Positions 12,209-15,535 of a stretch of 64,000 nucleotides of DNA are shown here, piece by piece (position 1 is the first letter of the stretch; every line of letters begins with the position of its first letter). This DNA comes from Flavobacterium sp. 83. GTDB lineage: Bacteria > Bacteroidota > Bacteroidia > Flavobacteriales > Flavobacteriaceae. The notes beneath the pieces were generated by a model. It worked only from the letters and a program-made list of their open reading frames with translations, did no database searches and was not told the DNA's origin. The position numbers and the translations under genes are program-made. The stretch is taken from contig NZ_JQMS01000001.1 of the NCBI RefSeq assembly GCF_000744835.1, positions 3,658,001 through 3,722,000 on the forward strand, written 5' to 3'.

Positions 12209-13289
12209 CTAGTAATTTTTTAAAGAAAGGAGTTAATTGGTCGGCCATTATTTTGTCGTCAGCAATATCCGGATGCGAACCACAACCGTTTGGTTTCATC
12301 GATTGAAATTCGAATAAGGCAATGGTTTTGTGTTGGGTATCATTTTCAAAAGCATGAATCACTTTTTTCAAACAACGCACCAAAGTTACATTTCTGTCTC
12401 CCGAAACCATCGGACTGTTCAACAATACTATTCTGGTATTTGGCGCATGTTTATAAACTGTTTTGATAAAATTGATGTAGTTTGAAACATATTTTTCTTC
12501 GTTAAAAGGCAATCGTTCTTTTTTTCCGTCACCATCCGAAAGGTCATTCGTTCCCAAACAAATACTAACCAAATCCGGTTGAAAAGCAAAATCATACGGT
12601 TTTGAATTGTCTTTATTCAAATACAAATTTTCATAAACATCAGGAATAATGGCTTCGTCTTTATGCTCGTCATTCCAGTTGCGATACATCCCAAATCCAG
12701 AAACGGAACTCAACACATAATCCACATTCAGACTACGAGAAACGATAGGTCCATACGCCCAATACGCATTATGCTGATCGTACCATTCTCCAGTTCCACA
12801 AGGAATTGCTGCCGTATCATTACCAAAACCACATGTAATAGAATCGCCTATGAGTTCTATTTTCTTTTTGTATTCAGGAGTGATTTGGGTTAGTCTGGCT
12901 GTAGTTCCACCAAATAAAACCCCACCATTCGAAGCTTCTGTAGCTTTATAAATGGTGAGACGGTGTGTTTTTTTCTTTTTGGAAATTACAATGGGAAAGG
13001 ACTGCAACACTCCTTTTTCAATTCGAACTCTTCCAATATAAGTACCATCTAATTCTAATGCAACATAATTTTGGTGTTCTTCAAGACTTTGTAACGAAAT
13101 AGAACACAAATCCCCTTTAAAATTAAACGAAACAGACGATGCGGAACCTATCAAAATCACTTTATCATCGGTAAGATGCTCCACTCTTCCGGAATAGAGA
13201 AAGGAACTGTTTTGCTCCGCTACTTTTTGAGCAAAGGAAACAAAGGAAAGGAATAGCAATACCAGTAAAAGGGATTTCTTTTTAAACAT
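12198..13289 (-). CDS. CE2-like SGNH acetylesterase, exported
   Basis: This 363-residue protein has an N-terminal jelly-roll domain (about 25-140) and a C-terminal SGNH hydrolase domain. S150 lies in LIGDSIT, a GTND block follows, and H339 lies in CGSHPD. This two-domain layout is that of carbohydrate esterase family 2, which deacetylates xylan and glucomannan. I start at the MFKKK methionine at 13289 because it begins a standard signal peptide; a longer reading from 13325 adds 12 residues that do not fit. A second, truncated copy of the 5' end lies at 15253-15503. Confidence 0.85.
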   Translation of the reverse strand: MFKKKSLLLVLLFLSFVSFAQKVAEQNSSFLYSGRVEHLTDDKVILIGSASSVSFNFKGDLCSISLQSLEEHQNYVALELDGTYIGRVRIEKGVLQSFPIVISKKKKTHRLTIYKATEASNGGVLFGGTTARLTQITPEYKKKIELIGDSITCGFGNDTAAIPCGTGEWYDQHNAYWAYGPIVSRSLNVDYVLSSVSGFGMYRNWNDEHKDEAIIPDVYENLYLNKDNSKPYDFAFQPDLVSICLGTNDLSDGDGKKERLPFNEEKYVSNYINFIKTVYKHAPNTRIVLLNSPMVSGDRNVTLVRCLKKVIHAFENDTQHKTIALFEFQSMKPNGCGSHPDIADDKIMADQLTPFFKKLLDEK

Positions 13290-13399
13290 TATAATGCGTT
13301 GGTTAAGATAAAACATAGAAAGCAAACGTATGCTTTTAATTGCTATTAGAAAGATACTAAAATGTCAAATGGTAATAAAAAAACACCAAAAGGTATTTT
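13148..13399 (-). repeat. Direct repeat, left copy (esterase 5' end and upstream region)
   Basis: About 250 bp covering the first 47 codons of the CE2 gene and some 110 bp upstream recur at 15253-15503 in the same orientation with roughly 93 percent identity by eye. The two copies bracket the Fic gene and its motif arrays. The upstream part probably contains the esterase promoter, since it is conserved in both copies. Confidence 0.85.
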
Positions 13400-13468: not shown

Positions 13469-14959
13469 TTACAATTCAAAAATAGTTTGATATTCTTTCT
13501 CCATCAATTCTATTTCAGCATCGGTTATTTTTTCAAAATCTTTTCTTCTCCTTTTTGGAAATACTCCTTTATTTTGATGCAAAAATTGGATCATCAAATG
13601 AATTTCTCTGTCGGGCATATCAACAATTTCCTGAATAGAAAGTCTCAATTCATCGTATCTCATAATAAATTCAAGCTCATTCGGAATGTCTGTCATCACG
13701 GTTTCTTGAATTGTTTTTCCTAAAAAAGAAGTTTGAACGGTCAAATCAGGAAATCGGTAATAGCTTTCTATTTCCTCTAAATTTAAAACCTGAATTATTC
13801 CTTTATCATCTTTATCATAATCAATTATATGCATTAATTCTCTGGAAAAATCTTCCAAGACAGCATCATATTCCTTGAGATTATTCAGTATATGTGCCGA
13901 AACCGGTATAATCAAACCATCGGGAACCACTTTATCCCGAACTAAGGTGTCGTGTATCAAAAATCGGTGCAAACGCCCATTTCCATCTTCAAAAGGGTGA
14001 ATAAAAACAAAACCAAACGACAACACACTGGCTCGAACTAATGTTGAAGTGGTTCCCGTTTTTAAGGCAACTTGTTTTAAACCATCCATCAAAGAAGGAA
14101 CCAGTTCCGGTGGCGGGCATATATAATGTAGCATTTCCGAATAATTGGGAAGTGATTGCCCCACATAATTCTGAAAATCACGATAGCTTTTTACGGCAAA
14201 TCTTGGATCTACAATTTCATTTTGCAAAAGCGTTAAGTTTTTCTCTTCAAACATTTCCTCTTCCCCAATTGTTCCCGCTTTCATTAATAAGGAGACAAAG
14301 CGTTCTATGCGTTTTGGAGAAGGTTTTTCATGCTCAATTTCATAAGATGATTTTGTTTCTTTTCCGTATAGATAATTGGTTGCTCGATTAAAAATGTCTA
14401 ACGGATACTCTTTCCGTAATTGCGTTATTTGAGCTGAAATATCAATATTTTGAAAAGTTTCTATTTCGATTGTTTTTCTAACAATTGGGCAAAACTCTGG
14501 AGTTCCCAGCAAGTTGTCGTTGATTTTCCATTTAGAATTCTTAACCGTTTTTCCGACGATATATTTTTTTCTATCTAACAAATCAACATAATTTCCAGAA
14601 ATAACAAAGTCCAAATCGAGTGATTTATCCATCAGAAACTCATACAGAAAACCAATTTTTTTAGAGTATATTCCTGACGGAGAATTACCTATAAAATCAA
14701 TAATTTCTTTTTCAGGAATTTTTTTAAAAACAGATTTTATTAAATGAAAATCAAGATAGTCGTATTTCATTCCAAAAACAAGATGTTCCAGCGGATTGTT
14801 TTCAACAGCAAACTTACTGGATCTAAATACTTGAAGAACGACACCTTTCGAAGTCATTTCTATTCCATCCTTTTTTCCAATAAAGGATTGATGCTTCAAA
14901 GAACATTTGTTCAATTTATAAAATTCTTTCAACCAAGAAAACCCTATTTTTTGTTCCAT
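13469..14959 (-). CDS. Fic-domain protein (putative AMPylase)
   Basis: This 496-residue protein carries the canonical Fic motif HPFEDGNGR at residues 321-329. The full catalytic His and phosphate-binding residues are present, so it should be active in transferring AMP or a related group to a target. The N-terminal 200 residues and C-terminal 100 residues are not domains I recognise; the C-terminal part may be a helical DNA-binding region. The start ATG is 16 nt from the first of five motifs in an array that extends away from the gene. It is read alone and sits between direct repeats, so it looks acquired. A toxin or regulatory role is inference. Confidence 0.85.
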   Translation of the reverse strand: MEQKIGFSWLKEFYKLNKCSLKHQSFIGKKDGIEMTSKGVVLQVFRSSKFAVENNPLEHLVFGMKYDYLDFHLIKSVFKKIPEKEIIDFIGNSPSGIYSKKIGFLYEFLMDKSLDLDFVISGNYVDLLDRKKYIVGKTVKNSKWKINDNLLGTPEFCPIVRKTIEIETFQNIDISAQITQLRKEYPLDIFNRATNYLYGKETKSSYEIEHEKPSPKRIERFVSLLMKAGTIGEEEMFEEKNLTLLQNEIVDPRFAVKSYRDFQNYVGQSLPNYSEMLHYICPPPELVPSLMDGLKQVALKTGTTSTLVRASVLSFGFVFIHPFEDGNGRLHRFLIHDTLVRDKVVPDGLIIPVSAHILNNLKEYDAVLEDFSRELMHIIDYDKDDKGIIQVLNLEEIESYYRFPDLTVQTSFLGKTIQETVMTDIPNELEFIMRYDELRLSIQEIVDMPDREIHLMIQFLHQNKGVFPKRRRKDFEKITDAEIELMEKEYQTIFEL

Positions 14960-14974
14960 ACAAATCTATATTTT

Positions 14975-15105
14975 TGGAAAAACAATTATTACTCTGGAAA
15001 AACAATTAAAATTTAATACAAATATGGAAAAACAATTATTTAATTGCAATCAATTTTTAATAAATTTCATGGAAAAATAGTTATTTCTCTGGAAAAACAA
15101 TTATT
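14975..15105 (-). promoter_or_regulatory. Array 1: five TGGAAAAAC motifs upstream of the Fic gene
   Basis: Five copies of TGGAAAAACAATTATT or close variants start at 14975, 14995, 15025, 15070 and 15090 (steps 20, 30, 45, 20). On the Fic coding strand they read AATTGTTTTTCCA. The first ends directly before the leader of the gene. Near-whole-turn spacing suggests a multi-site operator bound by one protein, perhaps the Fic protein itself or a partner. Confidence 0.6.
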
Positions 15106-15114
15106 TCGAATGCT

Positions 15115-15251
15115 TTTTACGGTAAAACAGATAATAGTTACGGTAAAATTGATAAATCGGAAGGTTTTTACGGTAAAAACTATATCTACATTAAAAAGTC
15201 ATTTTGTTTTAATAAATTTTTACGGTAAAACAAATATTCGGCACGGTAAAA
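15115..15251 (-). promoter_or_regulatory. Array 2: five TTACGGTAAAA motifs with the same spacing pattern
   Basis: Five copies of TTTTACGGTAAAA or variants have their GGTAAAA cores at 15121, 15142, 15172, 15224 and 15245 (steps 21, 30, 52, 21). The motif is an almost perfect 13-bp dyad. Spacing order and a shared TTTAATAAATTT-like segment before the fourth site mirror array 1, so the two arrays appear to be diverged copies with different core motifs. The array runs up to the breakpoint of the right-hand direct repeat at 15253. Confidence 0.6.
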
Positions 15252-15252
15252 A

Positions 15253-15394
15253 CTATCAAAATCACTTTATCATCGGCTAGATGCTCCACTCTTCCTGAAT
15301 AGAGAAAGGAACTGTTTTGCTCCGCTACTTTTTGTGAGAATGAAGCAAAGGAAAGGAATAGCAATACTAGTAAAAGGGATTTCTTTTTAAACAT
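15253..15394 (-). pseudogene. Truncated 5' fragment of CE2 acetylesterase gene
   Basis: From an ATG at 15394 this encodes a signal peptide and about 47 residues closely matching the intact esterase gene that starts at 13289 (MFKKKSLLLVLLFLSF in both). Similarity stops at codon ILI, where array 2 begins. The reading then runs through the repeats to a stop at about 15209. It has no catalytic domain and is a duplication remnant. The upstream part of the duplicated segment extends to 15503. Confidence 0.85.
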
Positions 15395-15503
15395 TATAGT
15401 GGGTTGGTTAAAATAAAACATAGAAAGCAAACCTATGCTTGTAATTGCTATTAGAAAGATACTAAAATGTCAAATGGTAATAAAAAATGCCAAACGGTAT
15501 TTT
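15395..15503 (-). repeat. Direct repeat, right copy, upstream part
   Basis: This continues the duplication of the esterase upstream region (matching 13290-13399) and ends near the sequence GGTATTTT. Between 15504 and 15835 I see the hairpin at 15536-15557 and otherwise only AT-rich sequence without a supportable gene. Confidence 0.8.
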
Positions 15504-15535
15504 AAAATGACAAAATAACCAATCAAAATTTTCTC

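Follow-up and report, generated by a model that had tools for sequence, protein, structure and literature searches.

In the window analysed here, a stretch of 64,000 nucleotides (nt) from Flavobacterium sp. 83, a gene of the Fic family is preceded by two arrays of short repeated sites. Most of the homologues of this gene that were examined carry such arrays, in which the geometry is constant and the letters of the core vary. This variation from gene to gene tracks one domain of the protein, an indication that each protein reads the array of its own gene by a code that keeps being replaced. The reading preferred here, with a probability of about 0.72, is that the N-terminal domain binds its own phased array, probably for autorepression, and that its specificity is replaced from time to time, old arrays being left behind.

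Residues 1-150 of the Fic protein would recognise a short core, in most cases a T-tract with variable bases on either side. This core, in several copies, would form an operator array upstream of the protein's own gene, in triples spaced 30 + 20 base pairs (bp). Since these distances correspond to about three and two helical turns, several copies of the protein could bind along the same face of the helix. Such binding would most likely repress the Fic gene and hold a potentially toxic, AMP-transferring enzyme at a low level. Array and reading domain would change jointly on the same catalytic part, and an array of the earlier specificity may stay upstream after the replacement.

Site arrays and their geometry across the family

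Both arrays were located in the window by direct reading of the sequence and by pattern search, as listed below.

14975..14986, minus strand: array 1 site 1, ATTGTTTTTCCA (sequence reading, pattern search)
14995..15006, minus strand: array 1 site 2 (sequence reading, pattern search)
15025..15036, minus strand: array 1 site 3 (sequence reading, pattern search)
about 15055..15068, no strand: AT-rich TTTTTAATAAATTT preceding array 1 site 4 (sequence reading)
15070..15081, minus strand: array 1 site 4, variant ACTATTTTTCCA (sequence reading)
15090..15101, minus strand: array 1 site 5 (sequence reading, pattern search)
15117..15127, minus strand: array 2 site 1, TTTTACCGTAA (sequence reading, pattern search, comparison with a 90% identical relative)
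15138..15148, minus strand: array 2 site 2 (pattern search)
15168..15178, minus strand: array 2 site 3 (pattern search)
about 15207..15219, no strand: AT-rich TTTTAATAAATTT preceding array 2 site 4 (sequence reading)
15220..15230, minus strand: array 2 site 4 (pattern search)
15243..15251, minus strand: array 2 site 5, core only, ACGGTAAAA, at the junction with an esterase copy (sequence reading)

Array 1, which reads towards the gene, is exact at 14975, 14995, 15025 and 15090 and variant at 15070, with steps of 20, 30, 45 and 20 nt. Array 2 has four exact sites and the partial one at 15243, and its cores are separated by 21, 30, 52 and 21 nt. An earlier note, made from the letters of this DNA, had described two five-site arrays matching in number, order and spacing and differing in core, a similar AT-rich stretch before site 4 of both, and an array start 16 nt from the Fic start codon. 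The arrays and the AT-rich stretches were found as described, and the nearest site begins about 15 nt from the ATG by our measurement.

With at most one mismatch, the array-2 core had 12 matches in the window against 3.2 expected, a number reached in 0 of 100 shuffles; three array-2 sites are counted on both strands in these 12, because the core is nearly palindromic. The array-1 core had 9 matches against 2.7 expected, and 9 was reached in 1 of 100 shuffles. Site 1 of array 2 lies 30 nt from site 5 of array 1 and thus completes a second 30/20 triple of array 1. In the comparison with the 90% identical relative (locus L224), the array 1 cores were 43/45 identical and the array 2 cores 31/40. 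Array 1 (TTTTTCCA) is the better maintained array of the window. Array 2 (TTTTACCG) is an older, decaying array, with the core type of relatives that are 54-57% identical.

Homologues were drawn from genomes and, in a few cases, from viral contigs. The length was sufficient in 146 of 159 matched frames, and the removal of 23 near-duplicates left 123 homologues, 120 of them with at least 200 nt upstream. Recurrence of 8-mers was scored in these upstream regions without any motif. Of the 120 loci, 65 showed it at a distance of 20 nt (mean of dinucleotide shuffles 6.5, z 22), 69 at 30 nt (z 32) and 62 at 50 nt (z 23), the shuffles giving about 6 loci at the latter two distances. The next-ranking distances were 49 nt (22 loci) and 29 nt (19 loci), and inside the gene, taken as control, 4, 20 and 11 loci showed recurrence at 20, 30 and 50 nt.

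A 30/20 triple scoring above all 60 shuffles was present in 96 of 121 upstream regions, where about 2 were expected; with 40 shuffles the count was 93 of 120. Control regions gave 7/120 within the gene, 5/116 downstream and 5/113 at 640-900 nt upstream, with about 3 expected. Other triple spacings scored on the same upstream regions gave 12 to 28 of 120 if they shared a step of 20, 30 or 50, and the spacing 24/36, which shares none of these, gave 4 of 120. Read towards the gene, the order was 30 then 20 in 80 of 87 loci, and several loci had two triples, 23 to 57 nt apart. The core varied by locus, usually as a T-tract with variable flanking bases, for example AAACCTGTTTTTCC, TAAGTGTTTTTCA, GCGCACGTTTTTT, TTTTACAGTAA and ATTCGACA. 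By record title the 96 array-bearing loci span 11 phyla, of which six are represented by a single locus; many come from metagenome-assembled genomes, and 54 are from genomes placed only by kinship or without rank. One locus (L232, G850:C4:345010-349279) holds two tandem Fic homologues, each with a triple array.

The possibility that the arrays are a by-product of conserved coding sequence was rejected. When only the DNA before the first in-frame ATG was used, recurrence at 20, 30 and 50 nt persisted in 59, 66 and 60 of 120 loci, and triples above all shuffles in 92 of 120. Before any in-frame ATG, GTG or TTG they were found in 83 of 120. The DNA before the preceding in-frame stop serves as a test of noncoding sequence because the gene cannot be coding there, and the excess persisted in it (68 of 119). 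Among 87 triples, 83 lie wholly before the first in-frame ATG; four loci (L185, L186, L187 and L208) have two sites inside the frame.

The geometry was also examined in loci held out from the above, namely 8 plasmids (picked from 20 among 306 records) and 4 new genome loci. An array above 200 shuffles was seen in 8 of these 12, which are not all independent, as the N-terminal domains of L234, L236 and L304 are at least 90% identical to those of loci already used. In 299 genomes of the window's genus, a degenerate triple pattern gave 10 matches, spread over 7 genomes and without exception next to a Fic homologue; the reversed control pattern gave 1 match. Two of the 7 genomes are near-duplicates, and the homologue at L244, missed by the Fic motif script, is the next frame. 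Thus the homologues were not devoid of arrays and the spacing match was not lost with more examples, the two outcomes that the earlier note had named as counting against it.

The Fic protein and the domain that tracks the core

13469..14959, minus strand: Fic-family gene, 496 amino acids, active site HPFEDGNGR; candidate phage-defence protein PDC-S24 (PF02661, PDLC04966)
14510..14959, minus strand: N-terminal domain, residues 1-150, proposed DNA reader (covariation; AlphaFold2 pLDDT 95.4)
14585..14638, minus strand: residues 108-125, best predictor of the array core among the stretches tested (covariation)
13952..14197, minus strand: Fic/DOC catalytic domain, residues 255-336 (Pfam match)

Core similarity was compared with protein identity window by window along the protein in 87 loci with refined arrays, as a partial correlation given the remaining protein. 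The value was 0.07 at residues 1-25 and 0.10 to 0.30 from residue 11 to 145, with the peak at 101-125; beyond residue 145 it stayed between -0.13 and 0.09. In partial Mantel tests r was 0.333 for residues 108-125 and 0.303 for residues 1-150, each reached in 0 of 500 permutations, 0.120 for residues 66-95 (4 of 500), -0.10 for the Fic part and -0.06 for the C-terminal part. Removal of the four loci with in-frame sites changed these values little (0.328 for 108-125, 0.294 for 1-150, -0.094 for the Fic part and -0.054 for the C-terminal part). When the window was represented by array 1 instead of array 2, r was 0.335 for 108-125 and 0.271 for 1-150. Thus the core covaries with a part of the Fic protein, as had been proposed for testing; the guess that this part is the C-terminal region failed, since the covarying part is the N-terminal domain.

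Among single columns tested, 123 and 122 ranked top for prediction of the core, followed by 145 and 18. By eye, 'IK' at 121-122 accompanies ACCT cores, 'KR' accompanies GCGCACG and W144 accompanies TTTTAC. K122 without an insert goes with a CCT core in 8 of 10 loci against 3 of 77 others, and in one of its two misses (L214) ACCT is present in the core, outside the positions read by the rule. W144 goes with TTTA[CT] in 10 of 12 against 4 of 75, the two exceptions being the window and its 90% relative. The K122 trait changed 9 times on the tree of the catalytic part, with too few independent pairs for significance. A rule linking an insert between 122 and 123 to GCG cores was discarded as weak (4/10 against 6/77; independent pairs mixed).

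The models show a helix at residues 96-109 and, after it, a loop and short strands. Such a structure would suit a winged-helix-like reader, a comparison kept tentative because no solved fold matched clearly. No Pfam family scored above its cut-off on the N-terminal domain, and a Foldseek search with its model returned no match at E 0.001 or better, which shows only that none was found. Homology to AbiEi, suggested by fold ranking, found no support in profile comparison (hhalign probability 0.3%), and the AbiEi family was absent among the Pfam matches of 30 N-terminal domains. A search with the N-terminal profile restricted to short proteins gave 708 matches, P0250 and P0252 being examples; among the 120 listed, several are named as partial Fic genes. 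Some matches of this profile lie on very long contigs and might be stand-alone readers.

The catalytic part is that of a Fic protein. The window protein matches Pfam Fic/DOC PF02661 with 44.6 bits (cut-off 24) and carries HPFEDGNGR; the strict motif HPFx[DE]GN[GK]R is present in 113 of the 123 homologue frames. PDLC04966 (PDC-S24) of PADLOC, for which the library gives neither cut-off nor description, matches it over its full length (residues 1-495, 569 bits, E 1.8e-171). At the class II inhibitory motif (S/T)xxxE(G/N) the window reads S-YEIE-H, with S and E placed and H instead of the usual G/N, and a relaxed motif allowing H is found in 101 of 123 homologue frames. The NCBIfam SoFic equivalog NF046030 scored 26.3 bits on the window protein, below its cut-off of 550. 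The protein is best read as a class-II-like Fic enzyme (PADLOC PDC-S24) with an unrecognised N-terminal domain. It would transfer AMP and may serve in phage defence, for which PDC-S24 is a candidate only. With dN (nonsynonymous divergence) 0.056 and dS (synonymous divergence) 0.58 against L224, the window gene is under purifying selection. The family is large; 5382 relatives scored at E 1e-30 or better among 7998 candidates.

Joint replacement, stacked arrays and alternative readings

In 159 pairs with a catalytic identity of at least 70%, core similarity correlated with the N-terminal domain at rho 0.69 and with the catalytic part at rho 0.30; without the four in-frame loci (142 pairs) the values were 0.66 and 0.26. 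The DNA of L204 and L208, which come from two genomes of the window genus, is 97-100% identical from gene position 540 onward, 57-73% over nt 60-480 and 88% over the first 60 nt. Their array regions (-300 to -60) are 40-50% identical, and just outside the array the two are nearly identical again. The same drop in identity, less sharp, is seen in L211/L213 and in L203/L006. Array and N-terminal domain have been replaced together on the same catalytic part.

Three cores are stacked upstream of the ATG of L208: ACCT, which is the L204 core, at -268 and -248; GCGTG at -202, -173 and -153; and AAGTG at -96 and -66. The AAGTG group has two related sites inside the frame. The first codons of L208 and L204 contain array-like AAGCGTTTTTCAC sites in two different frames, 20 nt apart, which may reflect either protein conservation or an array extending into the gene. 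A scan of 117 loci with core classes found at least two classes at 4 of them, compared with 0 of 585 shuffled regions. The window and L224 are counted as one stacked case and L208 as another; a stack flagged at L226 was set aside, as its two classes resemble one overlapping core. An array of earlier specificity can remain upstream, the window being the second stacked case after L208.

The window had been taken in the earlier note for a duplicated region with a changed motif, two specificity modules lying side by side. The L208 stack upholds the changed motif and the modules. Local duplication does not follow from the spacing match alone, since most of the family shows 30/20 spacing as a rule, and as the whole story it is ruled out by the family-wide spacing. 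An origin of both window arrays from a single one, by simple tandem duplication and later drift of the core, appears rather unlikely. The two arrays are indeed similar in number, spacing and AT-rich spacer; however, the spacing occurs through most of the family, the array-2 core resembles that of relatives of 54-57% identity, and the L208 stack involves cores that belong elsewhere to other reader types.

Arrays were also found, unexpectedly, in phage DNA. The degenerate triple pattern matched 31 stretches in viral contigs, 20 intergenic and 11 within long frames. Of the control spacings, 25/25 gave 7 stretches, each a plain tandem repeat of 25 nt; 27/23 gave 9 stretches that fall into two families (four coding, and five 45% inside a long frame); and 33/17 gave none. 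Arrays with the TTTTACNG core had 0 matches in phages, both at 30/20 and at the control spacing. Among the 20 intergenic stretches L268 is of low complexity, and the rest form seven or eight groups by eye (e.g. L251:11840-11960 and L256:10340-10460, intergenic and with no Fic gene detected). Seven (L251, L253, L256, L257, L261, L263 and L276) have four sites in 30-20-30 order. L251, L257, L272 and L276, together with L311 from a scan in reversed order, adjoin a second core TTTTATGCA, twice at exactly 20 nt; the Fic homologue L016 has this core type. Downstream of the 31 stretches, a search reaching to 2.4 kb or to the end of the available sequence found no Fic motif. The reader domain was found in 0 of 18 array-bearing phage records, which are fragments, so that the empty result proves nothing, and similarity searches for the hosts of these phages gave no clear answer. 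The phage arrays could be decoys, operators of an unseen regulator or remains of old cassettes.

These arrays bear on a second alternative, considered unlikely, in which the arrays would serve mainly for tethering and not for repression: the DNA-bound Fic protein would be inactive and would be released when a phage destroys or shuts off the host DNA. The arrays would then act as DNA antidotes that hold docked Fic inactive, cassettes would keep foreign arrays against rival Fic cassettes, and phages would carry arrays, sometimes with two cores side by side, as protein-free decoys against this defence. The sites exceed the needs of simple repression (several loci have two triples), upstream regions retain arrays of other cores, and phage DNA carries such arrays. 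Retained arrays can, however, be mere relics, and array 2 of the window decays.

It is improbable that the covariation reflects linkage only, with another host protein reading the array and the N-terminal domain following merely through adjacency and co-exchange. In favour of linkage, the array is exchanged along with the 5' part of the gene and adjoins the N-terminal codons. However, residues 1-25, nearest to the array, were not significant when the four in-frame loci were left out (r 0.055, reached by 45 of 300 permutations), whereas the peak lay at 108-125 (0.328, 0 of 300). Pairs below 45% identity gave 0.285 for residues 108-125 against 0.03 for 31-65. The cores differ among homologues of one genus, so that a shared host reader would need to follow each gene.

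In type III toxin-antitoxin systems an antitoxin RNA built of repeats inactivates the toxin, and a repeat transcript that keeps the Fic enzyme inactive in this fashion would agree with repeats directly upstream of a toxin-like gene in a single orientation and with the slight folding excess of the window array (z -1.86 against shuffles, 9 of 200 as good), but it is very improbable given steps in multiples of ten bases with sequence-free spacers, as helix phasing of DNA would give, and no Rfam match at gathering score.

Relation to known systems and cassette edges

Autoregulated toxin-like genes with operators are a known kind of system; the unusual part here is constant geometry with variable letters. 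The PADLOC entry PDC-S24, a single-protein phage-defence candidate, matches over the whole length, and its library has nothing on an operator array; a full-text literature search for the name found no paper. Compared with SoFic and class II Fic enzymes, the N-terminal 150 residues and the array are extra here. The type IV antitoxins AbiEi and Rv2827c belong to a separate two-gene system with inverted 23-bp repeats and gave no profile match. In the immunity regions of temperate phages and the C-protein operators of restriction-modification systems, regulator and operators switch specificity jointly as a swappable module. This joint change is common to the Fic arrays; unlike in those systems, the presumed regulator here forms a fusion with the Fic enzyme, and phased triples whose core varies freely serve as the operators. 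Literature searches returned papers on SoFic, AbiEi and toxin-antitoxin systems and otherwise nothing relevant among the papers listed.

A very large family of Fic proteins seems to carry a readable DNA code, for which no name was found in the literature searched. With its fixed geometry and free letters it forms a natural series of protein-DNA specificities, with residues 118-124 and 143-146 as candidate determinants. It also offers a concrete example of specificity turnover in which older operators are left as strata. If the phage arrays are decoys, they would represent an anti-defence strategy that needs no protein, and other systems could be screened for it.

At the edges of the cassette, two copies of the 5' part of an esterase gene were located by sequence comparison.

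15253..15503, minus strand: partial esterase 5' copy, 93% identical, abutting array 2
13148..13399, minus strand: counterpart within the complete CE2/GDSL esterase gene, which lies just beyond the Fic gene

Together they form a direct repeat of 252 columns (93%) that flanks the Fic gene and its arrays. The relative L224 has the cassette next to the same carboxylase gene but lacks the esterase there, and the unit that moved may have been either the Fic cassette or the esterase cluster. Insertion of restriction-modification genes can bring a long duplication of the target, and some Fic cassettes are likewise flanked by long direct repeats. Of 100 Fic loci, 10 had flanking direct repeats of at least 40 bp, compared with 2 of 223 control placements, which were taken from Fic loci with room; some of the repeats are multi-copy (L005, L231). 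The relatives of 60-85% identity (P0003-P0007) are known as proteins only and were not returned by two genus searches.

L204 and L208 each directly follow an hsdS gene, and hsdR follows L204, which places it in a restriction-modification locus. The Fic homologue at L296 (G908) sits within a type I restriction-modification locus, with hsdS on one side and hsdR on the other. In the window, a tandem repeat with a 20-nt unit (2.5 copies) lies outside the arrays at 15464-15514.
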